Shown piece by piece: positions 1,245 to 15,885 of a stretch of DNA of 24,422 nucleotides (positions within the stretch are counted from its first letter, which is position 1; each line of letters opens with the position of its first letter). A program made the translations under genes and the position numbers. The notes beneath the pieces are model-generated. The model had not been told where the DNA came from. It did no database searches and worked only from the letters and a program-made list of their open reading frames with translations. The stretch is from a virus: the IMG/VR virus record IMGVR_UViG_3300028045_001253, positions 1-24,422 of that record; one strand, 5' to 3'.

Positions 1245-2063
1245 TCAATAATATTTGTAACTGTCGTAAAGAAATAATCCGCTTTGACTCCACTTCGCTT
1301 TAAATATATTAGCGTTTTGATGTAAGGAAAATCCGATCTTCTTTTTCTGCACAGTTGCCCCCACATGATGATGCCCGATAATGTCAGTATCAATATACAC
1401 TCTCTTTCCTAAAGACTTTATAGCAAGTGCCAATGAAATATCTTCGTAAGTACCGAGTCCATAATCAACATCAAACCCACCAACTCGATTGAACAGTTCC
1501 CTACGAACTACAAAACATGCTCCAGTAACTCCAAAAGCATCTCTGGACACACAACATTTAGGATTATCTGCGCTCCATCCAACTAAAGGGTGAATGACAT
1601 TGGCTTCAACATCCATAGCCAAACCCACATGTTGAACTTTTCCAGCAGGTCTTCCAGGGTCTACACTGTCTTCTGGAAAGAGAAGTTTTATTCCTAACAT
1701 ACCGATTGTTTCATCTTTCATTACTTCAAGCATTTGTTCAATAGCAGTATCAGAAAGAACAACATCATCAGTAAGTAGCAAAACTAAAGGAGCTTTCCCC
1801 ATTGCTATTCCAGCGTTACAGAGACGAGGGTATCCAACATTTTGTCCAAGCATCTTAGCATTGTATTTCTCTAACAACTCTCTATTTTGATTTCTGTCTG
1901 GAATATCATCATTACCATCAATGAGATAGGTGTTAAACTTTTTCACTGTTTGAGTTTCTAAGGCATCTAAACATTTCTCTAGGATGTCGTATCTACCAGC
2001 GGTAGGAACTACTACATCCAGAAGAAACTTTTCCTTCTTTGACTTGTTTCGTTTTCTACTCAT
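1245..2063 (-). CDS. Family 2 glycosyltransferase (GT-A fold)
   Basis: This 272-aa protein transfers a sugar from a nucleotide donor in the cytoplasm. The N-terminus is basic (MSRKRNKSKK) and is followed by the GT2 opening strand LLDVVVPTAGRYDILEKCL (about 14-32). The metal-binding DxD-like motif is LTDDVVL (97-103). A late acceptor/catalytic region reads GGFDVDYGLGTYEDISLA (195-212), with the acidic pair E207-D208, then HHHVGAT. No membrane segments are seen, so it is probably soluble. The ATG overlaps the end of the upstream GT4 gene by 8 bp, implying coupling. It is the last gene of the sugar cassette and is followed by the terminator at 1168-1221. Donor and acceptor cannot be read from the sequence. 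Family assignment is firm. Confidence 0.88.
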   Translation of the reverse strand: MSRKRNKSKKEKFLLDVVVPTAGRYDILEKCLDALETQTVKKFNTYLIDGNDDIPDRNQNRELLEKYNAKMLGQNVGYPRLCNAGIAMGKAPLVLLLTDDVVLSDTAIEQMLEVMKDETIGMLGIKLLFPEDSVDPGRPAGKVQHVGLAMDVEANVIHPLVGWSADNPKCCVSRDAFGVTGACFVVRRELFNRVGGFDVDYGLGTYEDISLALAIKSLGKRVYIDTDIIGHHHVGATVQKKKIGFSLHQNANIFKAKWSQSGLFLYDSYKYY

Positions 2064-3201
2064 CTAAAACCTCTTCTATCATTTCTTTAAGTTGATTTAC
2101 GGGAATATCCCATGTAAGCGATTTTACATAATGTAAAGCAGCATCAGACATGTGCTTCATAATACGACCATCTTTTACACAATATAATATTTCTTCTGTC
2201 GCTTTTTCTCTGTCTATCATACTACGCTTAGAATTGCCCCAAACATCAGTAAACTCGTACTCAGGACGAATCAAAAACCCTCTAAGAACTGTCCCTAGAC
2301 CATCAGCAAGCAATTCAGTCATTGCTCCTGTATTAGTAGCCATAACTGGTAATCCTACACTCATAGCTTCTAGCAGAGGTAATCCAAGACCTTCTCCCTT
2401 GCTCGTATTCAAATACAAATCAGAAGCAGCATATAGTGTCCACAGCACATCTTGAGGCAATCCACGTTCCATAACCACTAGCTCATCATTTATATCTAAA
2501 GTCAAAGCTAAATCTCTGATTTTATGTCCTACATGAGAATGTTCCCTAGTCACTAAAATGTACTTTAGATTCTTTACACCAGACTTCTTTACCTTAGAAA
2601 CAATATCCATAGCAGCCCACAAATTCTTTCTTTCTTGATTATCTGCTACAGAAAGAATGACAAATTTGTCTTCTAGTTCCATTGATTTTCTAATTCTATT
2701 TCTTGTCTCTTCGTCACGTTCAGGCCAAATCTCTGTGTCAGAACCAATCTTAATATGTTTAGCTTTTGTAAGCCCTGCTTTATGCGCTGCCTTAGTTGCT
2801 AACTCACTAATGAATAAAGCTCCGTCAGCAAACATCAAAGAAGCAGCCCATGTCATAGTAAGAGGGCCATTCTCTAGTGGAGTGATGAAAATGTATTTAG
2901 AATCTAAATCCTTCAACTTCTCGATGAAGAATTGTTGGTGAGGAACATCTAAAGCGACTACTACTACATCAGGTTTCCAGTCCAAGAAATGTAAATTATG
3001 GGCAATAGCATGAGCAGATTTGAAATCTTTAGCTGGAATGATAGAGAAGGGAAAGTCATGCTCACTGCCATCATTCCCTAGTCCGACTGCCTTCACATCA
3101 AAACCTAGACCAACAAGACCTTTCATCAAAGGCAAAGAAATGTACATGTATCCAGAGCCTATAACCGCTAAATCAGTAATAAATAAAATGTTTTTAGTCA
3201 T
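2056..3201 (-). CDS. Family 4 glycosyltransferase (GT-B fold)
   Basis: This 381-aa protein has two Rossmann-like halves. The N-terminal half opens with NILFITDLAVIGSGYMYISL. The C-terminal donor-binding half contains the GT4 signature GEGLGLPLLEAMSVGLPV, with two glutamates spaced E-x7-E. ILSVADNQERKNLWAAMDI matches the region that usually holds the phosphate-binding Arg/Lys. I place the start at ATG 3199-3201, because AGGTGG lies 6 nt upstream. A TTG two codons earlier is the alternative. The gene overlaps the DUF5662-like gene by 8 bp and the following GT2 gene by 8 bp. It is likely a soluble cytoplasmic transferase acting in series with the neighbouring GTs. Substrate is unknown. Confidence 0.88.
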   Translation of the reverse strand: MTKNILFITDLAVIGSGYMYISLPLMKGLVGLGFDVKAVGLGNDGSEHDFPFSIIPAKDFKSAHAIAHNLHFLDWKPDVVVVALDVPHQQFFIEKLKDLDSKYIFITPLENGPLTMTWAASLMFADGALFISELATKAAHKAGLTKAKHIKIGSDTEIWPERDEETRNRIRKSMELEDKFVILSVADNQERKNLWAAMDIVSKVKKSGVKNLKYILVTREHSHVGHKIRDLALTLDINDELVVMERGLPQDVLWTLYAASDLYLNTSKGEGLGLPLLEAMSVGLPVMATNTGAMTELLADGLGTVLRGFLIRPEYEFTDVWGNSKRSMIDREKATEEILYCVKDGRIMKHMSDAALHYVKSLTWDIPVNQLKEMIEEVLDE

Positions 3202-3658
3202 GTACAACCACCTGTGATTCTAGTAGTTTAGCGGTATTCCTAAACGCTTCCATCAATACGTCAGGAGAAATGTCTAGTGGATATACTTCTCCCTTTCTAC
3301 CCATACCTGCCATAACACAATCTACAATCATTTCTATCACATCAACAAGGTTAACATCGTCAGGCACACCATCATCTTGTAGTAGATGATGCCTATTTAC
3401 TTTACGATGATTATCCCACCAATCAGTTGTCTCAAAGTTGTTTTTGAAGTCTTTGTAAAAAGCATCTAGCCCATCTTTACTTCTCTTATCAAAGTCGTGC
3501 CAAGATTCTGCTTTTTGCATCATCCCTATAAAAAACTCCAACCCTCTCTGAACATCTCCTATATGTTGGAGACTACTCTCTAACAACTGATCTTTAGTTA
3601 CCTTAGACACATCACAAGTTCTAGTGTCTGCTGTCTCACTCTTTTTTATATGTATCAT
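3194..3658 (-). CDS. DUF5662-like phage protein
   Basis: This 154-aa protein of unknown biochemical role has a helical core. HNRHH-like and acidic motifs recall the DUF5662 family found in many phages and some bacteria: NHRKVNRHHLLQDDG followed by NLVDVIEMIVDCVMAGMGR. The conserved His/Asp/Glu residues suggest a metal-binding site, possibly a hydrolase, but that is inference. An AAAGGA box 7 nt before the ATG supports the start. The gene sits between a homing endonuclease and a GT4 gene. It overlaps the latter by 8 bp and so belongs to the same transcript, although the family is not specifically linked to sugar metabolism. It may be an unrelated accessory gene carried within the cassette. Confidence 0.6.
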   Translation of the reverse strand: MIHIKKSETADTRTCDVSKVTKDQLLESSLQHIGDVQRGLEFFIGMMQKAESWHDFDKRSKDGLDAFYKDFKNNFETTDWWDNHRKVNRHHLLQDDGVPDDVNLVDVIEMIVDCVMAGMGRKGEVYPLDISPDVLMEAFRNTAKLLESQVVVHD

Positions 3659-3673
3659 ATTTTATCCTTTCAT

Positions 3674-4408
3674 TTATATTGAATGTGTATTATATGTTTT
3701 ATTAGTAATAATGTCACTTATAATAGACTGACTTACATCATAAGCATTAGCTAATTCCCATTGACGATAATTACCAGATGCGTACCTTTTTCTTATATCC
3801 TCAGCCTCAACTTGTGTTAGTTTTGCCTGAGGATGACTTTCACTAGCAATACCAAACAAAGCACTTTTCTCTCCAGACCTATCTTTTGACATACGTTTTT
3901 TGGTTTCTTCTGTATGAGTCTTTCCCCAAAAATGATTCCTTTTTCCTGTAAATGCAATAGATAACTTTTTCTTATGTTCATCTGAAAGTTTACATCCCCT
4001 TTTTGAAATTGAAATTTTTTCTTTGGTTTCGTCTGAAACTATATGCCCCATTTGAGATTCAGACATCTTTCTTTTGGTCTCTTTTGAATGGTTTCTATCT
4101 CTATTAGGAGCAATAACATCTTTAGCAATATTATAATCAAATCCGTATTTTACCACATTATCTAAATACCACTGCTCTCTAATAGGCACATTTTCTCTAT
4201 CGCTTACTACTTCTACGATTTCAAATTTGAAACTACTTTCTTTATATTTATTCCATGCTCTTTGTAAATGACTATTATCGTGAAATTCTCCCTTTAGTTT
4301 TCGTGTATGTACCCGCCATCGTGTATCAATATCTACACTACCACCTACATACATCTTCCCATTCACAAGATTAGTAATTTTATACACTCCAGATATTATT
4401 TTAGACAT
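3674..4408 (-). CDS. GIY-YIG homing endonuclease with NUMOD3 repeats and HTH
   Basis: A free-standing site-specific DNA nuclease of the kind that spreads its own gene between phages. The catalytic domain is visible as GVYKITN (GIY variant, residues 7-13), MYVGGS (YIG variant, 19-24), Arg30 and the metal-binding Glu78 in REQWYLD. About residues 100-190 carry several NUMOD3-like basic repeats (KETKRKMSESQMG, DETKEKISISKRG, DEHKKKLSIAFTG, EETKKRMSK). A C-terminal helix-turn-helix follows (WELANAYDVSQSIISDI). I choose ATG 4406-4408, with AAAAGGA about 9 nt upstream, over a TTG seven codons earlier. It overlaps the end of a glycosyltransferase gene by 13 bp without breaking it, so the insertion is neat. 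Confidence 0.88.
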   Translation of the reverse strand: MSKIISGVYKITNLVNGKMYVGGSVDIDTRWRVHTRKLKGEFHDNSHLQRAWNKYKESSFKFEIVEVVSDRENVPIREQWYLDNVVKYGFDYNIAKDVIAPNRDRNHSKETKRKMSESQMGHIVSDETKEKISISKRGCKLSDEHKKKLSIAFTGKRNHFWGKTHTEETKKRMSKDRSGEKSALFGIASESHPQAKLTQVEAEDIRKRYASGNYRQWELANAYDVSQSIISDIITNKTYNTHSI

Positions 4409-5442
4409 GAAAATATTTCCTTTTCCCAAACATCTAAAATTCTATTAAGGGAGAAGCGTTCTTTAGCTAATCTCTGAACTTCTTTAGCTTTCTCTTCTAA
4501 CAAGTCCTGATTTCTCAGTAAATTGACTGCACTAGCGACAAACTTCTTAGACCATTCTGGTGTAAAAGGACTTCCAGGTATCATAACTCCCATGTTAGTT
4601 GTAGACAACGCTCCCCAATCATTTGTAATTGGGAGACATTGTGCTACCTGGTTTTCTGCGGTAGAAATACAAAAAAGCTCATCGTACGAAGACGGGTACA
4701 GTTCTAACTGAGCTTCTAATTGATGCCTAATAAGCTCATCTCTCTTTACTGCACCAAGATATGTTACTCCAGGAAGCCTAGCAAATTTAGCCTTGAACTG
4801 TTGCGTTGCTTGAGGGTCTGCCCACTCACTCCATAATCTCCAATCTGATGTAATCACCAAAGACGCTTCTGGAACATCTCGAACAATCTCTGCCCATACA
4901 GCATGTAACTGCATCACACCTCTATCTGGCATGTGATTGAAGATGCAACGATAAGGAACTTTCTCTACTTCATCTTCTTCATACTCCCATACACGGATAG
5001 GAATATCTATGGTAATAGTGTCCTGTATGCCATAAAAATCTTTGAAATAATCTGCATGACGTTCTGAAATGGTGACTATTTTATCTACTTTTGGGGCAAA
5101 ATCTTTGAATGATCCTGTAGTGTGCTGGTCACATGATAGCCATACCCTGTATCCTATTGTGTGTGGAGTAAGTCTTACATTAGGAGAACGCCATATAATT
5201 ACTACATCTCTTTCATCTTCTGGAGTGAAAGCATCTATTGGAAGCTGACTGAAAATCGAACTGTTAGGGGATTTAGGACTATTATATAATGTCACATCAT
5301 GCCCTGCTTCATGCCAAGCTCTACAGATGGTAAGCATGAATAATTCAGAACCACCTACACCCATACGACCATCTTCACCGAAGATACTAGCTTCTGTAAC
5401 TTCAAGAGGACTACCGTCATTACAGATTACGTCTATCTTCAT
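4396..5442 (-). CDS. GT4-like glycosyltransferase (GT-B fold)
   Basis: This 348-aa protein resembles two-domain GT-B transferases. The N-terminal glycine loop MGVGGSELFMLTICRAW (27-43) is typical of GT4 enzymes that bind the acceptor there. HEAGHDVTLYN and VDKIVTISERHADYF follow. The C-terminal donor site reads ELYPSSYDELFCISTAENQ, where a Glu-containing segment replaces the common E-x7-E, then a WGALSTTNMG loop. No membrane helices are seen. The start lies 1 bp after the methyltransferase stop (5444). The last 13 bp overlap the GIY-YIG gene. It is probably the third or fourth transferase in the assembly pathway encoded here. Sugar specificity is not predictable. The family call is good, but the exact CAZy family is less certain because the signature is diverged. 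Confidence 0.8.
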   Translation of the reverse strand: MKIDVICNDGSPLEVTEASIFGEDGRMGVGGSELFMLTICRAWHEAGHDVTLYNSPKSPNSSIFSQLPIDAFTPEDERDVVIIWRSPNVRLTPHTIGYRVWLSCDQHTTGSFKDFAPKVDKIVTISERHADYFKDFYGIQDTITIDIPIRVWEYEEDEVEKVPYRCIFNHMPDRGVMQLHAVWAEIVRDVPEASLVITSDWRLWSEWADPQATQQFKAKFARLPGVTYLGAVKRDELIRHQLEAQLELYPSSYDELFCISTAENQVAQCLPITNDWGALSTTNMGVMIPGSPFTPEWSKKFVASAVNLLRNQDLLEEKAKEVQRLAKERFSLNRILDVWEKEIFSCLK

Positions 5443-5443
5443 A

Positions 5444-6025
5444 TTAGTACCTTTTAGCCTTTTCGCACATAAACCAAAATTCTTGGTCAGTATTCTTTCT
5501 CCATATCACCTTCCATCCAGAACGCTTCAATAGGAAATTCCACTGATCTTCTTCAAGTACAGAATAATGCCCTTGTCCCACACGACCCCAATAAGCAGGA
5601 TTTGGGAGAACTAGACATAGGAAGTGTGCTGATACCCTATGCCACTCCATTAGGGTAAGCAGTGGGGCAGGACTATGCTCTAGGGAATGACGAGAGAAGA
5701 TTAATCCAAATGAAGCATCTGCAAACTCTTCCAAGAAACTAAAGTCGCCATTGATAACATTCTTTCCTAAACCTTTTAGTTTCTCTACGTCCATTCCATT
5801 TGATATGCCAGTGTACTCCATTCCAAGGCTTTTGAAGAACCCTTCTGCTATAGCAGCATCTCCACATCCAACATCAAGAACATTAGTAACTCCTTTCAAC
5901 CCACTTATCCATTCAGTCATAATGCCACGCATAAGTGCAGTATGACCTTTATCTGGAGGAGATGGATAGTCATCACCGATTATTTCGTTTAAAAATATAT
6001 TCCAGTTTACAAAATTTCTAAGCAT
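5444..6025 (-). CDS. SAM-dependent class I methyltransferase
   Basis: A 193-aa Rossmann-type methyltransferase of the Methyltransf_11 kind. Motif I is VLDVGCGDAAIAEGF (about 49-63). An acidic/post-I region (EYTGISNGMDVE) and a motif-II-like stretch ASFGLIFSRHSLEHS follow. The final strands end in EFWFMCEKAKRY. A much longer open frame extends upstream to 6130, but it would overlap the preceding gene by 124 bp. The ATG at 6023-6025 has GGGAG 6 nt upstream and reduces the overlap to 19 bp, so I prefer it. Its place between an RfbH-like dehydratase and a glycosyltransferase suggests O-, N- or C-methylation of a sugar or nucleotide sugar, by analogy with methyltransferases in O-antigen and deoxysugar clusters. 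The substrate is inferred from context only. Confidence 0.82.
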   Translation of the reverse strand: MLRNFVNWNIFLNEIIGDDYPSPPDKGHTALMRGIMTEWISGLKGVTNVLDVGCGDAAIAEGFFKSLGMEYTGISNGMDVEKLKGLGKNVINGDFSFLEEFADASFGLIFSRHSLEHSPAPLLTLMEWHRVSAHFLCLVLPNPAYWGRVGQGHYSVLEEDQWNFLLKRSGWKVIWRKNTDQEFWFMCEKAKRY

Positions 6026-7344
6026 CCGCTTCTCCCATCTAAGAACTCCCTGAAAATTTCTACTATATAATCCATCATGTCTATAGTCAAGTTTGGATGA
6101 ACTCCAATCCAGAAAGACCTTTCTGTACAAATATCACTATTATATAATTTAGATAGTGTTAGATACTCAACATTCTCATAAGCAGGTTGCCGGATAAGAT
6201 TACCACCGAACATATTTCGTGTGCCTACTTTCTTTTCATTCAGGAAGTTTATGATTTCTTTTCTTGTAAAATCACAAGCGTAGGATTTCAAAGTTATAGG
6301 AAATCCAAACCAAGAAGGATCACTATTTTCAGTCGGTCTAGGAAGAATGAACCAATCTTCAAAATCTAACATCTTTTCGGAGAGATATATAAAATTATAT
6401 CTACGAGCATCTACAAATTCTTGTAATCTATCCATCTGAGAGGATAATAATGCTGCCTGTAAATCTGTAATTTTTAGATTATATCCTAAACGAGAATAGA
6501 CATATTTATGATCGTATCCATCAGGAAGACTTCTAAATTTATGTTCAAATCGTTTACCACAGGCATTATCTCTACCTGGGTCACAGTGACATGCCCTACC
6601 CCAGTCCCTAAAAGATTTCACAACCTTATTTATCATAGGACTATTTGTAAGAACAGCCCCACCCTCCCCTCCAGTAATATGATGTGCTGGATAATAAGAA
6701 TGTGTAGAAATATCTCCATAAGATTCTACTGGCTTCTCCTCGAAAGTAGAACCTACAGCATCACAACAATCACTAATCATAAAAATATTATACTCTCTGC
6801 ACAAATCTTCAAGAGCATCTGCATCAAATACATTACCAAGAGTGTGAGCAAGGACAACAGCTTTAGTCTTACCTATCACAATAGCTTCTGCAATATCATC
6901 TATCTTAGGAACGTATGTACCTAATTCAACATCAACAAATACAGGAATTGCCCCGTTCTGTATAATAGCATTTACAGTAGTTGGAAAATTCAAAGCCGTA
7001 GTAATGACTTCATCTCCAGGAAGAAGTCTACGCTCTCCAAACTCAGGTACAGTTATCGCTGTAATGGCAAGTAAATTGGCACTGCTTCCACTGTTACACA
7101 ATGTAATATACTTTACACCATTTCCCAAATGCTTACGAAGTTTATTCGTGTATTCTCTTGAATACTTCCCTTCTGTATACCATTGCCCAAGTGAACATTC
7201 CACCAATTTTGCTACATCATCTCCATTTATATCCGCACCATGAGGAGAGATGTAAGTTTCTCCAGGAATGAACTCACTAAATGTTCCTGAAATCAAGTGT
7301 CTACTGGATTCTATTATTTCTTTTCTTCCCATTTTATACGGCAT
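6007..7344 (-). CDS. rfbH: RfbH/E1-type nucleotide-sugar 3-dehydratase (PMP- and [2Fe-2S]-dependent)
   Basis: A 445-aa DegT/DnrJ/EryC1-fold protein with the marks of CDP-6-deoxy-4-hexulose-3-dehydratase (E1/RfbH/DdhC/AscC), which removes the C-3 hydroxyl on the way to 3,6-dideoxyhexoses. The usual PLP-binding lysine is replaced by histidine in SYYPAHHITGGEGGAV (H221/H222), as in this subgroup, so cofactor is held non-covalently as PMP. Asp192 fits the PLP N1 contact. The cysteines C194, C252, C254 and C262 give C-X57-C-X1-C-X7-C, exactly the spacing known for the E1 [2Fe-2S] site. Length matches the family (about 437). No E3 reductase, cytidylyltransferase or CDP-glucose 4,6-dehydratase is seen in the window, so the host or unseen phage genes must supply substrate and electrons. 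It overlaps the SDR gene upstream by 11 bp. A second ATG four codons in is possible. Confidence 0.9.
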   Translation of the reverse strand: MPYKMGRKEIIESSRHLISGTFSEFIPGETYISPHGADINGDDVAKLVECSLGQWYTEGKYSREYTNKLRKHLGNGVKYITLCNSGSSANLLAITAITVPEFGERRLLPGDEVITTALNFPTTVNAIIQNGAIPVFVDVELGTYVPKIDDIAEAIVIGKTKAVVLAHTLGNVFDADALEDLCREYNIFMISDCCDAVGSTFEEKPVESYGDISTHSYYPAHHITGGEGGAVLTNSPMINKVVKSFRDWGRACHCDPGRDNACGKRFEHKFRSLPDGYDHKYVYSRLGYNLKITDLQAALLSSQMDRLQEFVDARRYNFIYLSEKMLDFEDWFILPRPTENSDPSWFGFPITLKSYACDFTRKEIINFLNEKKVGTRNMFGGNLIRQPAYENVEYLTLSKLYNSDICTERSFWIGVHPNLTIDMMDYIVEIFREFLDGRSGCLEIL

Positions 7345-8164
7345 TTTTTATTATCTCGTCTACGGTATCATATACTGAATATTCAGGCAAGAACCCCAAA
7401 GAACGTAATTTAGCTGTATCCAATTCCATCTTATCTGTTTGAACATTCTTATGAAATGTGGGAGTTTTCTTAGTCTTTATCTTTCCTGTAGGCATTGTCA
7501 TGTAAGCATAGTAAACTAAATCTTGGACTTTATGAGATGTTCCAGAACCTATATTTACGATCTCACCAAGAGTAGAGTCTGAATCCATAGCTATCTTTAT
7601 GGCTCTAACTACATCCATCACATTCATGTAGTCTCTGTAAACACCAGTATCATATAGGGACACTTCTCTATCATTACACATTTCTGTAATCATATAATGG
7701 AGAGCGTTTTTCTTTGCCCCTGCTCCATTATCTTCACCACCAATAACATTACATAGGCGTAAGATACGATATTTCATTCCAAAAGTATTACAATAGCTTT
7801 CTAATAACATCTCAGCAGCGTACTTCGTAATGGAATAAAATCCTTTTGGATGACAGGAAGCATCTTCTTTTACAGGGAGATCTTCTTGCGCTCCATATAC
7901 GAACCATGACGACAAAAAGGTTATTTCTGAATCTGTTCCAAATACCTTTCTCATGTTCTCTAAGAAAGTGATAAAAGTAGTAAGATTTGTATCTATATCA
8001 AGATGAGGAGCTTCATGCACATTGTAATTATCCGTAGTGCTAATTGTGTATAAGACTTTATTGGAAACAGGCATATAATCAAACTTATAATTCACTAATA
8101 CGTCCGCACCAAATTGCCTTACAAACTCCGTACCAATGTAACCCTTTCCAAATAAATTTATCAT
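7334..8164 (-). CDS. NAD(P)-dependent extended SDR: sugar-nucleotide epimerase/reductase
   Basis: This 276-aa enzyme has the nucleotide-binding loop FGKGYIGTEF (G6-x-G8-x2-G11) directly at the N-terminus. The catalytic set is S85/S86 in FLSSWFVYG and Tyr110-x3-Lys114 in FYSITKYAAEML. LRLCNVIGG and YRDYMNVMDVVRAI follow, as in GalE-like and CDP-abequose/paratose-synthase-like enzymes. The C-terminus LGFLPEYSVYDTVDEII fits the substrate-binding end of this group. Its stop overlaps the RfbH-like gene by 11 bp, so I infer that it may act on a neighbouring 4-keto-deoxysugar intermediate, for instance as the C-4 reductase. A 4-epimerase or 4,6-dehydratase cannot be excluded. Start ATGA overlaps the preceding stop. 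Confidence 0.82.
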   Translation of the reverse strand: MINLFGKGYIGTEFVRQFGADVLVNYKFDYMPVSNKVLYTISTTDNYNVHEAPHLDIDTNLTTFITFLENMRKVFGTDSEITFLSSWFVYGAQEDLPVKEDASCHPKGFYSITKYAAEMLLESYCNTFGMKYRILRLCNVIGGEDNGAGAKKNALHYMITEMCNDREVSLYDTGVYRDYMNVMDVVRAIKIAMDSDSTLGEIVNIGSGTSHKVQDLVYYAYMTMPTGKIKTKKTPTFHKNVQTDKMELDTAKLRSLGFLPEYSVYDTVDEIIKNAV

Positions 8165-8532
8165 CTGTTTACAGGATTATGCTCGTTAGTATCTATTTGA
8201 GCTTTACATGCTAACAATGCACCTTGAGAACTTCCATGATTTTTATAGGCATCGTAATTTATTACTACCGCAGGAGAACCACATGTACAGAATAATACCC
8301 ACCCCAATTTTCTAGCATCTCTATATACAAAATGGTTATCGTATGGAGTACATTTCACCTTCTGACCCATTGTAGGAATGATGATGTACTCCTGCCTGGT
8401 GAATTCTTTACCATCAGAAGTAACTTTATTCAAATCTCCCCTATGATGAATAATGTTAGGGGCTTTTGCTTCCTTTATAGCCTTCTCTACAAGAGATAGG
8501 TTGTTAGGAATACTACCATTATTTTTACTCAT
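8161..8532 (-). CDS. Unknown 123-aa protein with Cys cluster
   Basis: I do not recognise this protein. It is 123 aa with no membrane segment. The N-terminal part is polar (SLVEKAIKEAKAPNIIHH). The middle holds a strand-rich segment (RQEYIIIPTMGQKVKC). The C-terminal part contains WVLFCTCGSPAVVINY and LLACKAQ, giving three cysteines in the second half plus C62, which could bind a metal. Similar short proteins with a CTCGS motif occur in phages and may be zinc-binding, but that is only an impression. It overlaps the upstream CgeB-like gene by 4 bp (ATGA) and the downstream SDR gene by 4 bp, so it is firmly embedded in the sugar operon and co-translated with it. Confidence 0.72.
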   Translation of the reverse strand: MSKNNGSIPNNLSLVEKAIKEAKAPNIIHHRGDLNKVTSDGKEFTRQEYIIIPTMGQKVKCTPYDNHFVYRDARKLGWVLFCTCGSPAVVINYDAYKNHGSSQGALLACKAQIDTNEHNPVNR

Positions 8533-9458
8533 TCTAATCCAAACTCCTCTAACACTTTGCCAACAAGTGCATCATAGGTGAAATCTTCCATGTTAACTTT
8601 ATTATACGCAGCAAGAGCAATTTCTTCTGCTTCATGTGGACTATTCAATGCCCACTGTACTCTAAGCACAGCTTCTTCCAAATCGTCAAATCCTAGATAG
8701 TGATGACCTTCCTCGAACCCAAATCTATCCAAATCTTCGCATCTATCTATAATTGGACATAACTTCATTGCCATTAGTTCAAATACACGAGCGTTCAAAT
8801 CACCTAAAGATGACCAGTTTAGTCCTAGTCTAGCTCGGTTATTCAATTCTCTATACTCATCAAAGATTGGCCCATTCTCAAATAGAACAGAAATCCCTAA
8901 AGATCGTAATCTATCTATCCATTCAATTCTCTGCGGATAGGGCATACCGATAAGTACTGCATCAGCATCTTTCTCAATCTCTGTCATAGGATAGTGGACA
9001 TCAGGGTCAAATGCGTAATGTAAAAGTACATCGTCCCCTTGAGCATACTTCGGGTGCATATTATAGGACACGTCAGAAACGCTTCTTGCATGAGAATAAT
9101 CTAAACAGTGGCTATCTGTAAAAATAGAAACAACTTTTCCATCGGATGGCTTACTTACCCAATTTACACCTGCGTCAACAGCAATCACAATATCAGGAAT
9201 CCATCCATCTAATTGCGCCTTTACTATTTCATAAGGAATTCTTCCAATATTGGGCTTAAAGGGCAGGGGATAAGTAGGAGGATTTGCATATTTCTCAGGC
9301 AAGTTCATCCCTCCCATCCAAGGAATAAATGAACCAGTGTAAGGCCCTGTAGTTCTCAAATCTACATCAGGATTGCGATTGAAAGCATTTTCCCAATAAT
9401 TTTTCATTGCTAAAGGATAATGAATTGAAAGAAGTAAAACTTTTATTTTTTTCATCAT
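8529..9458 (-). CDS. CgeB-like glycosyltransferase (Glyco_trans_1_2 type)
   Basis: A roughly 309-aa GT-B-like protein. The N-terminus KIKVLLLSIHYPLAMKNYWENAF starts the first Rossmann half. WIPDIVIAVDAGVNW and VVSIFTDSHCLDYSH resemble the acceptor half of CgeB-like proteins. The donor half shows LGLNWSSLGDLNARVFELMA and GFDDLEEAVLRVQWAL, the typical C-terminal Glyco_trans_1_2 pattern with Arg and Glu in the nucleotide site. I place the start at ATG 9456-9458, giving a 4-bp ATGA overlap with the HNH gene. A TTG at 9473 and the adjacent ATG at 9455 are alternatives. It is soluble. CgeB-like proteins are common in phage and spore or surface glycosylation loci. Target unknown. Confidence 0.8.
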   Translation of the reverse strand: MMKKIKVLLLSIHYPLAMKNYWENAFNRNPDVDLRTTGPYTGSFIPWMGGMNLPEKYANPPTYPLPFKPNIGRIPYEIVKAQLDGWIPDIVIAVDAGVNWVSKPSDGKVVSIFTDSHCLDYSHARSVSDVSYNMHPKYAQGDDVLLHYAFDPDVHYPMTEIEKDADAVLIGMPYPQRIEWIDRLRSLGISVLFENGPIFDEYRELNNRARLGLNWSSLGDLNARVFELMAMKLCPIIDRCEDLDRFGFEEGHHYLGFDDLEEAVLRVQWALNSPHEAEEIALAAYNKVNMEDFTYDALVGKVLEEFGLE

Positions 9459-9934
9459 TCCACCCATCCCCAATGTCTACCATTTAGAATATGATTTATA
9501 CAACTTTCAGAAACTAAAAACTCTTTAGCTAAACCTTTGTAGGTTACTCCTTTACGCCTAAGAGCCTTTATTTCTCTTACCTTATCTTCATTCAAAATTG
9601 CCTTATTATTCAGTATACCTTTATGACTTCTCTGTCTTCCTTTCTTAAACATGTCTTTTATATTATCCGCCTGTGTCCCAACAAAAAGATGATTTGGATT
9701 TACACAGGAAGGGTTGTCACAATGATGACAAACTACTTCATTATCACTAAGTTCACGCTTAGAATACAGCATCCATGATATTCTATGAGCCATATCCTGC
9801 GTATTTTCATAATAGAAAAGACCATATCCATCATGATTAAGACTAGAACCAACCCACTCCCAACATTCATCTGAATTCTTTTCTATATACTTACTATGAA
9901 ATCTACTTAGTTGTAATTTATTTAGAGTATACAT
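9455..9934 (-). CDS. HNH homing endonuclease (HNH_3 type) with C-terminal HTH
   Basis: This 159-aa free-standing nuclease has the HNH_3 core typical of phage homing enzymes: AHRISWMLY (49-57), the zinc knuckle VCHHCDNPSCVNPNHLFVG (68-86; C69, C72, C77 and H82) and TQADNIKDMFKKGR. A short C-terminal helix-turn-helix (GLAKEFLVSESCINHILNG) probably contacts the target. I choose ATG 9932-9934, which has GGAG 7 nt upstream, rather than a TTG five codons earlier. It overlaps the end of the GT2 gene by 17 bp and the start of the CgeB-like gene by 4 bp. It therefore interrupts the sugar operon without disrupting either neighbour, and borrows their transcription. Confidence 0.9.
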   Translation of the reverse strand: MYTLNKLQLSRFHSKYIEKNSDECWEWVGSSLNHDGYGLFYYENTQDMAHRISWMLYSKRELSDNEVVCHHCDNPSCVNPNHLFVGTQADNIKDMFKKGRQRSHKGILNNKAILNEDKVREIKALRRKGVTYKGLAKEFLVSESCINHILNGRHWGWVE

Positions 9935-10592
9935 CCCATTTCTCCGCAAACTTCTCTATGTTTCTTCGAGTTATTTTTTCTCTCTCTTCTCCGTATCCTA
10001 AAGTTTTACCCCCAAGATGAAGCACAGTATCCCTCGGCAATTCCCATAACTCATACCCTTTAGACAATGCAGTAGTGGACAAATCCATATCCTCCGCATC
10101 ATTCGGAACATATCTAGGATCAAAATATCCTAATTCTTTCCATCCTTCATTAGTGGTTGCCAGAACAAACCCTTCTGCATAAGGAAATATTTTTTCGCCA
10201 AACTTGTTCCATCCAGTAGTTTCTCTATACACTTTACCGCTAATTAGGGTTTTTGGATATTCAGCCAACCTATCTTCTATCTGTTCAAAGAAACCTTTAT
10301 AAACCCTAACATCAGTAGTTATAAGAATAACAATATCTCCAGACGCTACTTTCAGTCCCTTATTAGCAGTATAAAGAAATCCTAAGTTACTTTCGTTGCT
10401 GATGACAGAAAGGGGGAGCATCTTTTGTCCCTGCCACCAAGAAAGACCATCTACGAACCCATCTTCTGTGCTTTTATCATTTACAACAATCACTTCAAAT
10501 TCATTAGTACCTTTAGTGCTATGAATATCATAAAGCAATTGGTGCAGTAAAGCCCAATTATTATAGGCAGGAATTACTACAGAAGTTTTCAT
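9918..10592 (-). CDS. Family 2 glycosyltransferase (GT-A fold)
   Basis: A 224-aa soluble transferase. The GT2 opening KTSVVIPAYNNWALLHQLL is at residues 2-20. IVVNDKSTEDG (35-45) carries the nucleotide-binding aspartate. A TTDVRV segment (92-97) sits where the DxD motif normally lies. YVPNDAEDMDLS (161-172) is the acidic catalytic/acceptor region. It is shorter than most GT2 enzymes and has no C-terminal membrane helices, so it is unlike dolichol- or undecaprenyl-phosphate transferases. That suits a cytoplasmic acceptor. GGAG 5 nt upstream supports the start. It overlaps the RmlD-like gene by 4 bp, as second gene of the cassette. Confidence 0.87.
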   Translation of the reverse strand: MKTSVVIPAYNNWALLHQLLYDIHSTKGTNEFEVIVVNDKSTEDGFVDGLSWWQGQKMLPLSVISNESNLGFLYTANKGLKVASGDIVILITTDVRVYKGFFEQIEDRLAEYPKTLISGKVYRETTGWNKFGEKIFPYAEGFVLATTNEGWKELGYFDPRYVPNDAEDMDLSTTALSKGYELWELPRDTVLHLGGKTLGYGEEREKITRRNIEKFAEKWDVYSK

Positions 10593-11428
10593 AAAAGCTC
10601 CAATCCATCTCTGTATGAATACTGAGGTAATCCTAACTTGGCAGAAAGAGATACATCTAAACCTGCTTTATGTGGTCTAGGAGCAAACTCTTTCTTGTCT
10701 TTTTTGTGGGTACGAATATCAGTTCTCATACCATTCATTTCGAGCCAAGATTTTACAAAGTGACTCCAAGATAAAGTCTCACTTCCAGAAATGTGAAGCG
10801 TCTTAGGCATTTCATCTACTCTGCTCAGATACTTATCTAAACTTATTATGAAATGATTTAGGTGCATAAATGAACGATACATGAATGTGGGGAATGTTTC
10901 ATCTCTAGTAGGATTAAAATGAGTAGAAATCTTGTAGTCTCTCTCACTAGAAAACAAATAACTTGTACGAACAATCTTCATGTTGTCATACTCATTAGCC
11001 ATATACTCCCCCTGCAATTTGCTTCTGCCATACTGGTTTACGGGAACTGTACGGTTGTAGTCTTCTGAATATGGGCCTTTCTTTATCCATCTTTTCAATG
11101 AAAAATCAAAGTAATTTTTTCCGCTAAAGACATGATCTGTAGATAAGATTACCGATGGAATGTCTAGTTTCCTAGTCACTTCCCCTAAATTGAACACCCC
11201 CATAACATTTACATTAAACATCTCTTTGAAATTATCATCATTTTCGCACCATTCAGGAGATGACTTAGAAGCAAGAGAGACGACCACATCACACTTACAT
11301 GATGTAATCGCCTTCTCTACACTTCTTTCACTTCGGATGTCACAGTCTAAAGGAACATATCCTTCTTGTTTCAATAGCTCTGTGCCAACTCGACCTTTAT
11401 AGCCGATAACGCCTATTTTCTTTTTCAT
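10589..11428 (-). CDS. RmlD-like sugar-nucleotide reductase (SDR)
   Basis: A 279-aa SDR resembling dTDP-4-dehydrorhamnose reductase. The NAD(P) loop is GVIGYKGRVGTELL (G9-x2-G12-x2-G15). VVVSLASKSSPEW precedes NVNVMGVFNL, then VILSTDHVFSG (93-103). The catalytic Y133-x3-K137 lies in VNQYGRSKLQGE. The C-terminal PRPHKAGLDVSLSAKLGL fits the RmlD-type sugar-binding end (usually RPxxxxLD). In the rhamnose pathway the enzyme reduces a 4-keto sugar. Here RmlA, RmlB and RmlC are not visible, so the substrate may come from the host. It is the first gene of the cassette, 21 bp after the holin-like gene in gene order, with a GAGAAG box before its ATG. Family call is solid, substrate uncertain. Confidence 0.83.
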   Translation of the reverse strand: MKKKIGVIGYKGRVGTELLKQEGYVPLDCDIRSERSVEKAITSCKCDVVVSLASKSSPEWCENDDNFKEMFNVNVMGVFNLGEVTRKLDIPSVILSTDHVFSGKNYFDFSLKRWIKKGPYSEDYNRTVPVNQYGRSKLQGEYMANEYDNMKIVRTSYLFSSERDYKISTHFNPTRDETFPTFMYRSFMHLNHFIISLDKYLSRVDEMPKTLHISGSETLSWSHFVKSWLEMNGMRTDIRTHKKDKKEFAPRPHKAGLDVSLSAKLGLPQYSYRDGLELL

Positions 11429-11449
11429 TTATCTTCTCTTTGTTGTAAG

Positions 11450-11791
11450 TTATCCCTTTGCTGGAGTAAGTTTCTCCATAATACTTTTCAGAAGGGTTGT
11501 ATAGACTAAGGTAGCAAATGTAAAGGCTGGTGCAATTGAAGTTAATAGCGCACCAATCCATGCAAATCCTGCTCCAATAACATCTACTGGACTACCCAAG
11601 AACGAAATTTCAGGCAATACGGGAAGCTGAAAAATCAAAGCCAATACTAAGGATACTCCATACACTAACCACTGTAGTATAACTGTGGGAACGTCTTTAC
11701 CAGATTTGATCTGGTAAGTCTTTATTCCCCAAACAATAATCGAAGCTGCAAGCCCGATTACAAACAACATCACTTCACTAATTTCCATCAT
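11450..11791 (-). CDS. Holin-like small membrane protein
   Basis: This 113-aa protein has three hydrophobic segments: about 6-22 (VMLFVIGLAASIIVWGI), 37-57 (TVILQWLVYGVSLVLALIF) and 70-100 (DVIGAGFAWIGALLTSIA and onward). The C-terminus is short and charged (KSIMEKLTPAKG). Size and topology fit a holin, which would permeabilise the membrane so that a lysin reaches peptidoglycan. A GH25 lysin is encoded in the same window but 8 kb upstream, so they are not adjacent. There is no sequence signature that proves holin function, and another small phage membrane protein is possible. The start overlaps the stop of the preceding gene by 4 bp. Confidence 0.55.
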   Translation of the reverse strand: MMEISEVMLFVIGLAASIIVWGIKTYQIKSGKDVPTVILQWLVYGVSLVLALIFQLPVLPEISFLGSPVDVIGAGFAWIGALLTSIAPAFTFATLVYTTLLKSIMEKLTPAKG

Positions 11792-12030
11792 CTTTCTCCA
11801 GTTTCATACAATTTTACATTCACTGCACTAGCTACAAAAAATCTCTTTTTGCGCTTAACACAACACGCTCGTGTATCAATATTTAGTATCTTAGATAAAT
11901 CACCTTCCTTCACCCATCCCAAAGAAATATTATTACTCGGAGTCCAACTATAGAGAGTATCACCTACCTTTACATGCCACCCATTTGCTGTGTAATGCTG
12001 CGTGGCTACATAACCATCTCTAATTACCAT
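11788..12030 (-). CDS. Unknown 80-aa protein, possibly from a leaderless transcript
   Basis: I do not recognise this protein. From ATG 12028-12030 it reads MVIRDGYVATQHYTANGWHV, then VGDTLYSWTPSNNISLGWVK, and ends with a basic patch (CCVKRKKRFF). It is probably a small beta-rich soluble protein, perhaps SH3-like, with no membrane segment. A TTG six codons upstream is an alternative start. No ribosome binding site precedes either start. A TATACT -10 box lies exactly 6 nt before the ATG, so transcription would begin at or next to the A of the ATG. It overlaps the holin-like gene by 4 bp. Confidence 0.6.
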   Translation of the reverse strand: MVIRDGYVATQHYTANGWHVKVGDTLYSWTPSNNISLGWVKEGDLSKILNIDTRACCVKRKKRFFVASAVNVKLYETGER

Positions 12031-12036
12031 AAAGAT

Positions 12037-12065
12037 AGTATACCACAAAAATTATCTTATTTATA
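12037..12065 (-). promoter_or_regulatory. Extended -10 promoter candidate just before ATG 12030
   Basis: Minus strand TGGTATACT (12045-12037) gives an extended -10 (TG-n-TATACT). The -35 position 17 nt upstream is poor (TATAAA, 3 of 6), as is common with extended -10 promoters. The hexamer ends 6 nt before the ATG, which implies a leaderless mRNA. A weak 6-bp hairpin followed by a T run (12068-12047) lies over the same stretch and may end the preceding transcript. TGGTATACT also occurs at 14636-14628. Confidence 0.45.
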
Positions 12066-12070
12066 AGAAT

Positions 12071-12319
12071 TTAGTAAGAATGTATAACAGACTTCATTCG
12101 CTGTATAGATTCTTTAAATGCCGCCGCATTTATCATAAGAGTTCCTGTAACGTACTCAGAAACTACTTTTTCAAAATCAACTCTTCCATTGTCTCTAAAA
12201 TAAAATACCTGATGTCTAGGGTCTGACTTATCTGCATGACTATAAAATCCACCTAGAGCTATCAAAGCAGAAGCCAGGTAAATATCTTTGGTTTCAAAAT
12301 CTTCTCTTTTATCTTTCAT
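12071..12319 (-). CDS. DUF5659-like small phage protein
   Basis: This 82-aa protein of unknown function resembles the DUF5659 family of short phage proteins. The opening FETKDIYLASALIALGGFY is very characteristic. QVFYFRDNGRVDFEKVV and YVTGTLMINAAAFKESIQRM follow. The predicted fold is alpha/beta with a central strand pair. It is often seen among small accessory genes near phage replication or early regions, with no known activity. AAGGA sits 7 nt before the ATG. It follows the strong terminator at 12341-12377 and ends just before the promoter-like element at 12037-12065, so it may rely on read-through or a promoter I could not identify. Confidence 0.6.
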   Translation of the reverse strand: MKDKREDFETKDIYLASALIALGGFYSHADKSDPRHQVFYFRDNGRVDFEKVVSEYVTGTLMINAAAFKESIQRMKSVIHSY

Positions 12320-12340
12320 ATAAATTCCTTATTAAAATGA

Positions 12341-12377
12341 AAACACCTTACTAATATAATAATTTAGTAAGGTGTTT
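12341..12377 (-). terminator. Rho-independent terminator after the 95-aa gene
   Basis: A perfect 14-bp inverted repeat (AAACACCTTACTAA at 12377-12364, read on the minus strand as the 5' arm; its complement at 12354-12341) has a 9-nt loop and is followed by TCATTTTAAT. The stem is AT-rich but long. The T-rich tract is only on the minus-strand side, so it ends the transcript of the 12402-13576 small-gene group. Confidence 0.75.
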
Positions 12378-12401
12378 ATATCAAGCATATGAATTTATAT
12401 T

Positions 12402-12689
12402 CTAATCAAACATCCCTACAGTTTCACTAAAATCCATAGTCTGAGATAAGCAGAGATTAGGCTTTTTATATAATGGTCTAGGTCTCAAACCATGAGAAAT
12501 ATCTTGTGTAAACGTAGGGTTTACACCAAATAATTTACATTTCCTAGTTGTTCTATTGAAATAATCGCATGGTGTAACATAATCAGTTTCATCTCGTTCT
12601 TCACATAATCTGCCAGAAGGAACAAACTTCTTAGAGTAGTCTACATCTTTTCTACCTAACCTTCGTTCATGTGTGATATTCAATTCCAT
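12402..12689 (-). CDS. Unknown 95-aa protein with four cysteines
   Basis: I do not recognise this protein. It is hydrophilic and starts MELNITHERRLGRKDVDYSK. Four cysteines lie at about residues 29, 41, 51 and 80 in the contexts RLCEERDE, TPCDYFN, KCKLFG and NLCLSQ. This could hold one zinc ion or an Fe-S cluster, but the spacing matches no family I know. GGAG spaced 5 nt before the ATG overlaps the stop of the 52-aa membrane peptide gene (TAAGGAG), so translation is probably coupled. It is the last gene before the terminator at 12341-12377. Confidence 0.65.
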   Translation of the reverse strand: MELNITHERRLGRKDVDYSKKFVPSGRLCEERDETDYVTPCDYFNRTTRKCKLFGVNPTFTQDISHGLRPRPLYKKPNLCLSQTMDFSETVGMFD

Positions 12690-12698
12690 ATTTTCTCC

Positions 12699-12857
12699 TT
12701 ATCCAATTAATATAGGTAATACGATCTCAGGAACTTCCTGGCTTACTTGTGACGTAATAAAAATATACATGACTGTAACTATTAGTATTCCACAGAAAAC
12801 ACCAGAGATGAAGACTGTGAAATAGCGGAGGAATTTGGTTATTAGCTTTGTATTCAT
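12699..12857 (-). CDS. 52-aa single-span membrane peptide
   Basis: A small gene easy to overlook. ATG 12855-12857 opens 52 codons reading MNTKLITKFLRYFTVF, a hydrophobic helix at about residues 12-36 (IFITSQ ends it), and a short tail ending VLPILIG. The basic N-terminus and hydrophobic middle predict one membrane span with N-terminus inside. An in-frame stop lies three codons before the ATG, so the start is fixed. GGAG lies 12 nt upstream, a rather long spacing. Its TAA stop is merged with the ribosome binding site of the next gene, a strong sign of real coupling. A 67-codon frame starting with TTG over the same DNA is less convincing. Function unknown: possible lysis, superinfection-exclusion or host-membrane peptide. 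Confidence 0.65.
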   Translation of the reverse strand: MNTKLITKFLRYFTVFISGVFCGILIVTVMYIFITSQVSQEVPEIVLPILIG

Positions 12858-12915
12858 ACTTATCTAAGTCTCCAAGTAAGTGTAGGTACAAAATATATCC
12901 TATAATTACACTTTT

Positions 12916-12937
12916 ATCCTTATTTGACAATAAGGAT
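12916..12937. repeat. Short perfect hairpin in the spacer before the 52-aa gene
   Basis: A 9-bp inverted repeat (ATCCTTATT and AATAAGGAT) has the 4-nt centre TGAC. No U tract follows it on the minus strand, so it is not a standard terminator. It lies between the stop of the zinc protein gene at 12949 and the 52-aa gene, and could be an operator or an mRNA end-protecting hairpin. Confidence 0.5.
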
Positions 12938-12948
12938 TACCGTTATTA

Positions 12949-14528: not shown

Positions 14529-14533
14529 TCCAA

Positions 14534-14697: not shown

Positions 14698-15885
14698 TTA
14701 ATCGTTCGATAAGTGGACTACTGGACAGGTTGATACCGATCTCCCACTGAACAAGCTCGTATATTTACCATGAGCGCATCGAGCTTTGGCAACTAGGACA
14801 GTTTTCTTCCAAATCTGGAACGCAATTGCAGTACATCCAGGAGCTAAGTCCTTGAAAGCCAATGGAATTTGAGTCTTACGGAATATCAAAGGTTCTCCGT
14901 TGTGGCTCATACGCAGAGCGTAAAGGCTAGATTGGAATGTGGTTGCACTTGAAGCTGTGCGAGTAAAGTTACTATCCGCAACAACCATGAGCGTACCGAT
15001 GCCAGTATTGACTTCACCTGCGAAGTTGTAACCAGGAACGATGCGTTTTCCATCATTATGATTTACAAGTTGCGAACCTTGATAACCAAGTTGGAAATAT
15101 GCGCTCATCATTTCTTGGATGGCAGTGGGATGACCGAAAACTGCGGTAGGTTTAGCACAACCTTCTGCTAAGAAACGGTCAAAGTTTGCACCAGAGAACG
15201 TGCCAGATGCCTCACTCGAAGCGTTTGTATGTGAGCCATTGCCAGAGGTGATGAGAGTTTCAATGCCATCATATTCGAGAGCGTTAGAGCTTGCGTTACC
15301 ACGAACTAAGAGGCGATCTTCGCCATTCAGTACGAGGGTTGCCATCAAAGCCATTTCTTTTGCTTTCAAATTAGCAACTGCCTGATTAGCTAACGTATTT
15401 ACACCAGCAACACCAGGAAGTCCTTGACCAGCAGGCATAGGCCCGTTCAAACTATCAATACCTACACCAAAACCGCCTTGCGACATGCCTGCTACAGCAG
15501 CAGAGTGCATGATGTCAGAAAGGGTTAGAGATTTGTAAGCGCCAATGTTTTTTAGTGTGGCAGTAACATTATCACCATCATGCTCATAATTTTCAGGGCA
15601 TGCTCCATCCGCAAATGAAACATAAGATGAACCAGAGACAAAAGCAAGTTCATCCATCTCTCGATAAGTAAATGCTTTCAGTCCAGTGCTTTCATCTGGA
15701 ATAGCCCGAAGCAAATTTACTTCTTCGCACATAGCGAGAAGTTCGGTTGTGTCTAGGGGAGTGGGGTACTGTGCAGCAAAATCACCAGGAGTAGTTACTC
15801 CAGGAAGTACAGGGTCAGTTGCTTTTGAAACAAAGCCCTGCTCTTTTACTTGGTCTTGACCAAGATTTAATACTAACTCAGGCAT
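14698..15885 (-). CDS. Major capsid protein (putative, HK97-like fold)
   Basis: A 395-aa protein in the position expected for the capsid subunit: directly downstream of the protease-scaffold gene and just before a strong terminator. It starts MPELVLNLGQDQVKEQGF and has the expected composition, rich in Ala/Gly/Asn/Ser with a PLDTTELLAMCEEVNLLRA helix early on. TDPVLPGVTTPGDFAAQYPT resembles an N-arm. The YDGIETLITSGNGSH region near the middle and the late HNGEPLIFRKTQIPLAFKDL recall capsid subunits in which an E-loop and P-domain precede a conserved Leu/Pro-rich tail. AAGGAGG lies 5-7 nt before the ATG, the best ribosome site in the window, as expected for a very abundant protein. No sequence motif is diagnostic, so the call rests on context and composition. 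Confidence 0.75.
   Translation of the reverse strand: MPELVLNLGQDQVKEQGFVSKATDPVLPGVTTPGDFAAQYPTPLDTTELLAMCEEVNLLRAIPDESTGLKAFTYREMDELAFVSGSSYVSFADGACPENYEHDGDNVTATLKNIGAYKSLTLSDIMHSAAVAGMSQGGFGVGIDSLNGPMPAGQGLPGVAGVNTLANQAVANLKAKEMALMATLVLNGEDRLLVRGNASSNALEYDGIETLITSGNGSHTNASSEASGTFSGANFDRFLAEGCAKPTAVFGHPTAIQEMMSAYFQLGYQGSQLVNHNDGKRIVPGYNFAGEVNTGIGTLMVVADSNFTRTASSATTFQSSLYALRMSHNGEPLIFRKTQIPLAFKDLAPGCTAIAFQIWKKTVLVAKARCAHGKYTSLFSGRSVSTCPVVHLSND

Follow-up and report, generated by a model that had tools for sequence, protein, structure and literature searches.

A conserved glycosyltransferase cassette in the head module of an uncultured phage lineage and its probable role in virion glycosylation

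A phage that carries a long run of sugar-modification genes beside its head genes poses the question of what those enzymes glycosylate. The window analyzed here is a 24,422-nucleotide stretch of viral DNA (IMG/VR record IMGVR_UViG_3300028045_001253, positions 1 to 24,422). A preliminary description placed a sugar-modification cassette at the border between head and tail-fiber genes and proposed that its products decorate a virion protein, such as the capsid or a LamG-like protein, in the cytoplasm. The locus was analyzed by family searches, AlphaFold models and comparison with related contigs.

Composition of the cassette

Positions 1245 to 11,428 form one minus-strand run that encodes five glycosyltransferases (GTs), an RfbH/E1-type 3-dehydratase, two SDR enzymes and a methyltransferase (Table 1), and family searches recovered every enzyme class named in the preliminary description. 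The term sugar-modification cassette is accurate for these genes and too narrow for the run, which also includes two homing endonucleases, a DUF5662-like ORF with no match in the relatives searched, and a conserved Cys/His protein, u123. The GIY-YIG and HNH endonucleases are missing from those places in close relatives. The RmlD-like reductase is present in most, though not all, relatives. Translation of the methyltransferase probably starts at 6025 rather than 6130 because the protein has 193 residues in relatives. No Pfam or PHROG match was detected for u123, and its AlphaFold model (pLDDT 77) has no fold match in the PDB or BFVD. Just beyond the run, positions 11,450 to 11,791 encode a 113-residue protein with three transmembrane (TM) segments and no Pfam match.

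Table 1. Genes of the cassette and its capsid-side flank, in window positions
Feature	Position	Strand	Evidence
GT2a, GT2-family glycosyltransferase, last core gene before the connector module	1245..2063	-	PF00535 1.3e-10; same place in 24/24 spanning contigs
GT4, GT4-family glycosyltransferase, core gene	2056..3207	-	PF00534 4.7e-17; phrog_2170 1.1e-26; 24/24
DUF5662-like ORF	3194..3658	-	PF18907 1.6e-5, slightly under curated cut-off
GIY-YIG homing endonuclease, cassette insertion	3674..4429	-	PF01541 2.2e-8; NUMOD3 1.1e-19
GTb, glycosyltransferase (phrog_2170), core gene	4396..5442	-	PF13439 1e-6; phrog_2170 9e-11
SAM-dependent methyltransferase, variable part	5444..6025 (trimmed start; called ORF 5444-6130)	-	PF08241 3.8e-8; 193-aa orthologue in G002
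RfbH/E1-type NDP-4-keto-6-deoxyhexose 3-dehydratase, variable part	6007..7344	-	NF011936 571 bits; PDB 3bcx/3bb8 E 1e-140
Short SDR (epimerase/4-ketoreductase-like), variable part	7334..8164	-	PF01370 2.7e-24
u123, lineage-specific Cys/His protein in every cassette	8161..8532	-	C82, C84, C109, H118 invariant
GTc, PF13524-type glycosyltransferase, core gene	8529..9473	-	PF13524 3.8e-15; 24/24
HNH homing endonuclease, cassette insertion	9455..9949	-	PF13392 6e-7; phrog_59 5e-26
GT2d, GT2-family glycosyltransferase, first core GT	9918..10592	-	PF00535 3e-19; 24/24
RmlD-like SDR reductase	10589..11428	-	PF04321 7e-29; TIGR01214 1.8e-22, under equivalog cut-off
cl7, small conserved protein (Cys-Cys motif) between MCP and cassette	11788..12030	-	alignment; conserved order
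Major capsid protein (MCP, HK97 fold), flanking anchor, candidate acceptor	14698..15885	-	phrog_212 0.0013; AlphaFold model

The RfbH protein scores above its NCBIfam equivalog cut-off (571 versus 423 bits). A histidine replaces the PLP lysine, and a C-x57-C-x-C-x7-C motif is present, which we take to be the [2Fe-2S] motif of RfbH/E1 3-dehydratases. These features liken the locus to the CDP-3,6-dideoxyhexose pathway (RfbF-G-H-I-J/Asc enzymes), to which relatives add an RfbG-like SDR, an RfbF-like nucleotidyltransferase and a cupin isomerase. The phages differ from that pathway in lacking an RfbI/E3-type flavin-iron-sulfur reductase (PF00970, 0/11 records, some of which may be fragments; control working), and the 4,6-dehydratase carried by the nearest relative is missing from the window. 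The dideoxysugar pathway is therefore either host-dependent or broken. The variable sugar made in this window is probably a 3,6-dideoxyhexose.

Position, conservation and exchange of the cassette

The AlphaFold model of the MCP matches the SPO1/HK97 capsids with an E value of 5e-12. The gene on the far side of the cassette in relatives encodes a head-tail adaptor (PHROG 442, E = 0.0017), which places the cassette within the head/connector module rather than at the head/tail-fiber border as first described. The order GT2d-GTc-u123-GTb-GT4-GT2a was identical in all 24 contigs that span the interval from MCP to adaptor, a stretch of 8.5 to 26 kb, so the gene-order comparison proposed in the preliminary description returned the same five GTs and Cys/His protein each time. 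The spanning contigs represent 23 MCP groups at 95% identity, and 21 of them were retrieved via MCP or TerL alone and not through cassette genes. GTb was found in 29/37 records; the remaining eight stop short of the GTb position. This arrangement is conserved far beyond chance, and the cassette, with the same core between MCP and adaptor in 24/24, is not a passenger. None of the papers searched describes such a cassette.

Among the spanning contigs, only the genes interspersed between the core genes differ; they comprise sugar-nucleotide, methyl and sulfo genes and additional GTs. The variable genes in relatives include a nucleotidyltransferase, a 4,6-dehydratase, a cupin isomerase, a sulfotransferase, a ThDP enzyme and more GTs. 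Some relatives' cassettes also hold genes of cell-surface type, namely an ABC importer (G007 and G008), an LCP protein (G034) and a multi-TM protein (G017 and G021). Strong positional conservation could in part reflect operon inheritance.

Comparison with the near-identical phage G004 located a sharp edge. The head genes at 12,060 to 23,427 (about 11.4 kb) match G004 at about 99 to 100%, and identity falls to about 60 to 70% at the cassette edge, with a breakpoint near 12,060, just upstream of cl7. This collapse next to matching head genes suggests that the cassette is exchanged between phages by recombination.

Related modules also follow other capsid genes. In contigs L271 and L274, a capsid gene of another family (phrog_1357) is immediately followed by homologous GTc and GTb modules (252-299 and 301-322 bits, respectively), which also include SDR and DegT genes, and in podovirus MW202524 a GTb homologue comes after the capsid gene. 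GTc had no match in the named-phage collection.

Site of glycosylation and candidate acceptors

As the preliminary description had stated, TM segments are absent from the core GTs; the sole hydrophobic stretch, at the GT4 N terminus, is read as a Rossmann strand. The reported lack of a flippase and a Gtr-type anchor was borne out as well. GtrA (PF04138), the Polysacc_synt flippase (PF01943) and the phosphoglycosyl transferase (PF02397) were each found in 0/31 records with working controls. The best-supported reading is that a virion protein is decorated in the cytoplasm. The evidence for it is a GT core that occurs throughout the lineage at a constant place behind the capsid gene, unaccompanied by any membrane GT, flippase, GtrA or phosphoglycosyl transferase. 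The modules behind other capsid genes and the head-module precedent of the Corndog-group mycobacteriophages lend further support. The part of the preliminary proposal that named the LamG-like protein is not supported. This ORF (positions 3 to 824) continues past the contig end, has no Pfam or PHROG match and no homologue among the relatives tested, and it was set aside as the acceptor because it is not conserved.

The same enzymes could instead alter a cell-surface glycan of the host during infection, leading to superinfection exclusion, receptor masking or seroconversion. O-antigen loci are the typical home of RfbH-type dideoxysugar enzymes, most phage GTs in PHROGs carry an annotation as O-antigen conversion proteins or morons, and the ABC importer, LCP or multi-TM genes of some relatives' cassettes point the same way. 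We consider host-surface remodeling unlikely. GtrA, flippase and phosphoglycosyl transferase were each found in 0/31 records, similar modules lie behind unrelated capsid genes, and accessory seroconversion genes do not share the universal presence and constant late head-operon location of this module. In DNA hypermodification, the GTs would glycosylate modified bases of phage DNA, a role for which placement in the head operon has no particular rationale. Thymidylate-synthase-type enzymes were found in 0/12 records (control working), and the C5 DNA methylase present in 5/12 records, which would favor a DNA substrate, is not universal and is located outside the cassette. Tet/JBP was likewise found in 0/12 records in a search whose control was silent. 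Phage GTs able to decorate DNA are mentioned in a passage of PMC12619734 that cites Pyle 2024, and a DNA substrate here is very improbable. We give equally little credence to the idea that these are selfish or hitch-hiking sugar genes that the structure of the operon retains and that lack any one conserved acceptor. Two homing endonucleases and a volatile interior would fit such genes, but all five core GTs persist in each of the 24 spanning contigs, across 23 MCP groups.

Decoration of a virion protein leaves the MCP, the tail tube or a variable head fiber as possible acceptors. Residue N106 of the MCP forms an N-glycosylation sequon in 27/29 sequences; it was set aside as evidence, since the stretch is generally conserved and no cytoplasmic N-glycosyltransferase of the GT41 type was recognized in the cassette. 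A search for Ser/Thr-rich acceptors returned mostly antisense frames, and the only credible candidates were proteins in L272 (1021 residues) and, weakly, G008 (1028 residues). In a search for the host, no MCP relatives were found among GTDB genome contigs, and E1 relatives are scattered over many phyla with at most 51% identity. The G034 LCP is slightly closer to Chloroflexota in a five-genome comparison, yet 400 Chloroflexota genomes contained no convincing MCP (best score 19 bits).

Taken together, the locus is quite probably a late-expressed virion-glycosylation module. Working in the host cytoplasm, GT2d, GTc, GTb, GT4 and GT2a, all of them soluble, would assemble a conserved core oligosaccharide together with u123. 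The acceptor would be a structural protein of the phage, most likely the MCP, followed by the tail tube or head fiber. The variable genes, in this window those for E1/RfbH, the two SDRs and the methyltransferase, would make and cap the outer sugars and would be traded between phages through recombination. The resulting glycan is thus predicted to have a fixed core and variable outer sugars, and it may benefit the phage in adsorption, shielding or stability.

Comparison with known glycosylation systems

Few phages are known to have glycosylated virions, and the trait is generally regarded as a curiosity. Passages of PMC12363180, PMC11600133 and PMC12619734 that draw on Freeman et al. 2023 describe it in mycobacteriophages Che8, the Corndog group and Myrna. 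Those systems likewise use soluble phage GTs and a methyltransferase, and in Corndog relatives the set lies in the head module: in cluster O phages, the genes that separate portal from capsid include those for an O-methyltransferase and three GTs, enzymes that PMC11600133 and PMC12363180 report to modify the capsid and tail tube. The GT genes studied here also lie inside the head block, whereas the Che8 GT (gp110) is outside its own. The Corndog-group GTs precede the protease and MCP rather than following the MCP, and number three without adjoining sugar-nucleotide enzymes, compared with five core GTs and variable pathways here. Among the Catdawg GTs, no homologue of GTc, GTb, GT4 or u123 could be detected; gp35 alone shows generic GT2 similarity (33 bits). 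The Gtr seroconversion cassettes (GtrA-GtrB-GtrC) also consist of phage-borne glycosyltransferases, and the present locus differs from them in having no GtrA, no membrane GT and a fixed head-operon position.

The GT core is as constant a feature of this widespread uncultured lineage as the capsid gene. More tentatively, and with a chance we place a little short of even, capsid glycosylation may be obligatory and self-contained throughout a whole tailed-phage lineage, with a fixed core, swappable outer sugars and u123 as a new dedicated component. Phages with identical head proteins would then differ in glycan "serotype" by cassette exchange, displaying dideoxy, branched, methylated or sulfated sugars. 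Such recombination-switchable serotypes would have consequences for the ecology of phages, for their adsorption and stability, and for immune recognition, and the locus would offer a compact, testable system of cytoplasmic protein glycosylation. Its modular interior is a rich source of unusual sugar enzymes. The counterpart would be chlorovirus PBCV-1, which encodes its own GTs and sugar-nucleotide enzymes and builds, in the cytoplasm, an MCP glycan with a conserved core and strain-specific extensions (PMC7019647). Both viruses encode GTs and sugar-nucleotide enzymes, and the phage glycan is predicted to share the division into core and variable parts. PBCV-1 is an algal virus unrelated to tailed phages, whereas the phage genes form one compact operon adjoining the capsid gene.

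Glycosyltransferase core between the capsid and adaptor genes

The genes of the window, an IMG/VR fragment of 24,422 bases, lie on the minus strand in the order TerS, TerL, GH25 endolysin, portal, protease/scaffold, major capsid protein (MCP), small genes, sugar cassette and two contig-end ORFs. Within 1245-12319 the spacing between adjoining reading frames runs from -124 to +22 bases, the pattern of a single transcription unit with overlapping or abutting frames, which suggests late expression together with the head genes. Two homing endonucleases, a DUF5662-like ORF and the conserved Cys/His protein u123 lie among the sugar genes, and a 3-TM protein lies ahead of the cassette; the preliminary description lacked all of these. 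The endolysin gene sits within the packaging block and is 48% identical in relatives, versus 86% for portal in the same relatives.

Coordinates of features in the window and in related viral records
Feature	Record	Position	Strand	Remark
Sugar cassette	window	1245-11428	minus
Methyltransferase start	window	6025	minus	probable; a relative's protein has 193 aa
E1, RfbH-type 3-dehydratase	window	6007-7344	minus
u123	window	8161-8532	minus	Cys/His protein
3-TM protein	window	11450-11791	minus	113 aa, no Pfam match
cl7	window	11788-12030	minus	small conserved protein
GIY-YIG homing endonuclease	window	13635-14528	minus	behind MCP
MCP	window	14698-15885	minus
GH25 endolysin	window	20213-22153	minus	between TerL and portal
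4,6-dehydratase-like SDR	G002	9220-10152
ABC sugar-importer set	L043 (G007)	14373-16974		counterpart in L055 (G008)
Ser-rich protein	L272	9481-12546	plus	1021 aa

The first relatives were found through TerL and E1 scans. MCP alignment located 39 loci among viral contigs, with no match in GTDB genomes, and profile searches over the MCP loci returned an identical gene order everywhere. Presence and order were scored by family HMMs after whole cassettes were fetched. The order MCP - cl7 - GT2d - GTc - u123 - GTb - GT4 - GT2a - cl20, which contains five glycosyltransferases (GTs), was found in 24 of 24 contigs having both MCP and cl20, over MCP-to-cl20 spans of 8.5 to 26 kb. Three of these contigs (G036, G037 and G039) were found via u123 and hence depend on the cassette; the remaining 21 came via MCP or TerL. 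The set corresponds to 23 MCP groups at 95% identity, with G002 and G005 sharing one. GTb was present in 29 of 37 records, and the other eight are short records or stop a little way past MCP on that side. The cl20 gene is assigned as the head-tail adaptor because it matches PHROG 442 (E = 0.0017) and a Neck1-type gene lies two places beyond (phrog_5, 1.6e-6). The MCP assignment gains support from structure: an AlphaFold model of modest confidence (pLDDT 65) matched the capsids of SPO1 and HK97 in Foldseek, with E values as low as 5e-12. The cassette, for which the preliminary description had proposed a search for the same gene order in related contigs, is real and defines the lineage; that description said too little about it, not too much. 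Six cysteines (C53, C96, C243, C351, C370 and C387) are invariant in 24 MCP family sequences.

Dideoxysugar step, variable interior and cassette exchange

The DegT-family gene (E1) scored 571 bits, above the NCBI RfbH equivalog cut-off of 423 bits, and its alignment with the E1 structures in PDB 3bcx and 3bb8 gave E about 1e-140. It keeps the histidine in place of the PLP lysine (YPAHHITGGEGG) and contains C-x57-C-x-C-x7-C, which we take to be the [2Fe-2S] motif of E1. The domain of the RfbI-type reductase E3 (PF00970) was found in 0 of 11 phage records, while control genomes gave matches, so the dideoxysugar step would rely on host electron donors. A 4,6-dehydratase-like SDR occurs in the nearest relatives (G001, G002 and G005) and is missing from the window, which suggests that the substrate is probably supplied by the host or by unseen genes.

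Gene sets between the core genes differ among relatives. They include RfbH-type E1 or other DegT enzymes, 4,6-dehydratase/epimerase SDRs, nucleotidyltransferases, a cupin isomerase, sulfotransferases, methyltransferases, a ThDP enzyme with an additional methyltransferase, GT17 and extra GT2s. Minimal cassettes (G024, G025 and G030) carry the GT core, and no SDR or DegT gene was detected in them, so the host would have to supply the sugar donors. Four cassettes (L141, L142, L143 and L149, from G027, G028, G029 and G035) contain a divergent minus-strand block within the plus-strand operon that encodes a ThDP enzyme, two SDRs, a methyltransferase and a DUF7796-like protein and resembles a branched-chain sugar pathway. 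Variants of a motif centered on S-[IV]-R-V-[KRQ]-R-I-x-[EQ]-[AS] recur, at the end or inside, in otherwise dissimilar proteins, one of them GT2-like, of the G034, G020, G021, G026 and G040 cassettes (L147/L148, L133, L135, L140 and L155); four strict matches fall in C-terminal tails versus about 0.5 expected.

The head genes of G004 match the window at about 99-100% from 23427 down to about 12060, and at the cassette edge, starting with cl7, identity falls to about 60-70%. Assembly error of the metagenome is possible for one contig; the same cassette-side pattern appears in four others (G001, G002, G003 and G005), where the MCP-to-cl12 block is 91-100% identical to the window (mostly 97-100%) and most cassette genes are 68-93% identical. 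Three G002 cassette genes (a sulfotransferase, a GT2 and the dehydratase) are missing in the window. This near-identical head block beside a divergent cassette looks like recombination swapping cassettes behind a common head block. The GIY-YIG endonuclease behind MCP is 100% identical in five relatives and sits in the middle of this highly similar block; the local sequence sharing may therefore be driven by homing.

ALTERNATIVES: DNA modification and host-surface remodelling

Modification of DNA by the cassette GTs would be expected to involve base-modifying enzymes, and the usual ones were missing in the tested records, although the Tet/JBP test was weak, its control being silent. Remodelling of the host surface would call for export or anchoring. 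GtrA (PF04138), the initiating phosphoglycosyl transferase (PF02397) and the Polysacc_synt flippase (PF01943) were found in 0 of 31 records, with all three controls giving matches, and simple hydropathy of eight records showed no transmembrane segments in the core GTs. Transferases without membrane helices and the lack of a flippase or Gtr-type anchor had been noted from the window at the outset. Outside the core, G007 and G008 carry an ABC importer (assigned by reading the sequences), G034 an LCP gene and G017/G021 a multi-TM protein, so a surface role is possible for some members. The importer set, which lies within the cassette, comprises a permease, a lipoprotein binding protein and an ATPase, accompanied by GH42-like and GluRS-like ORFs. 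The gene in the G034 cassette (L147/L148) encodes a LytR-CpsA-Psr lipoprotein with PT-rich linkers of the kind seen in Chloroflexota proteins.

Putative acceptor and known virion glycosylation

MCP is the favored putative acceptor because it is the sole constant neighbor of the core; the preference draws on position and on no site evidence. GTb and GTc profiles also match phages outside the lineage. In L271 and L274, loci of other backbones, GT4, SDR, DegT, GTc and a fused GT2/GTb immediately follow a capsid gene from a different family (phrog_1357), in L271 together with a methyltransferase and a GT2. A homologue of GTb, scoring 191 bits, lies one gene past the capsid gene of podovirus MW202524, and the corresponding position in Microcystis phage Mae-JY09 holds a GT of distant similarity. 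This recurrence behind unrelated capsid genes is the strongest comparative sign and hints at the capsid or its surface as the target; the GTb-positive contigs were picked on GTb, so the capsid-GT link is an association and gives no frequency. The Ser-rich protein of L272, a phage of another backbone, has several hundred residues of repeats (SESASPSV...), comes after a cassette that encodes GTb, GT2s and a sulfotransferase, and is a candidate natural O-glycan acceptor.

The cassette fits best with phage virion glycosylation, as a putative new form on a much larger scale that would work like the known systems. Che8, Corndog and Myrna are reported to glycosylate capsid and tail tube by their own GTs (PMC12363180, PMC12619734), and cluster O phages to carry an O-methyltransferase followed by three GTs (PMC11600133). 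We located this set between portal and protease/capsid in Catdawg and Firecracker. Unlike those of the cluster O/Corndog-type phages, the cassette GTs belong to other families, except for generic GT2 similarity. Chlorovirus glycosylation is virus-encoded and cytoplasmic, with a conserved core glycan and strain-specific outer sugars (PMC7019647); the cassette would share this logic.
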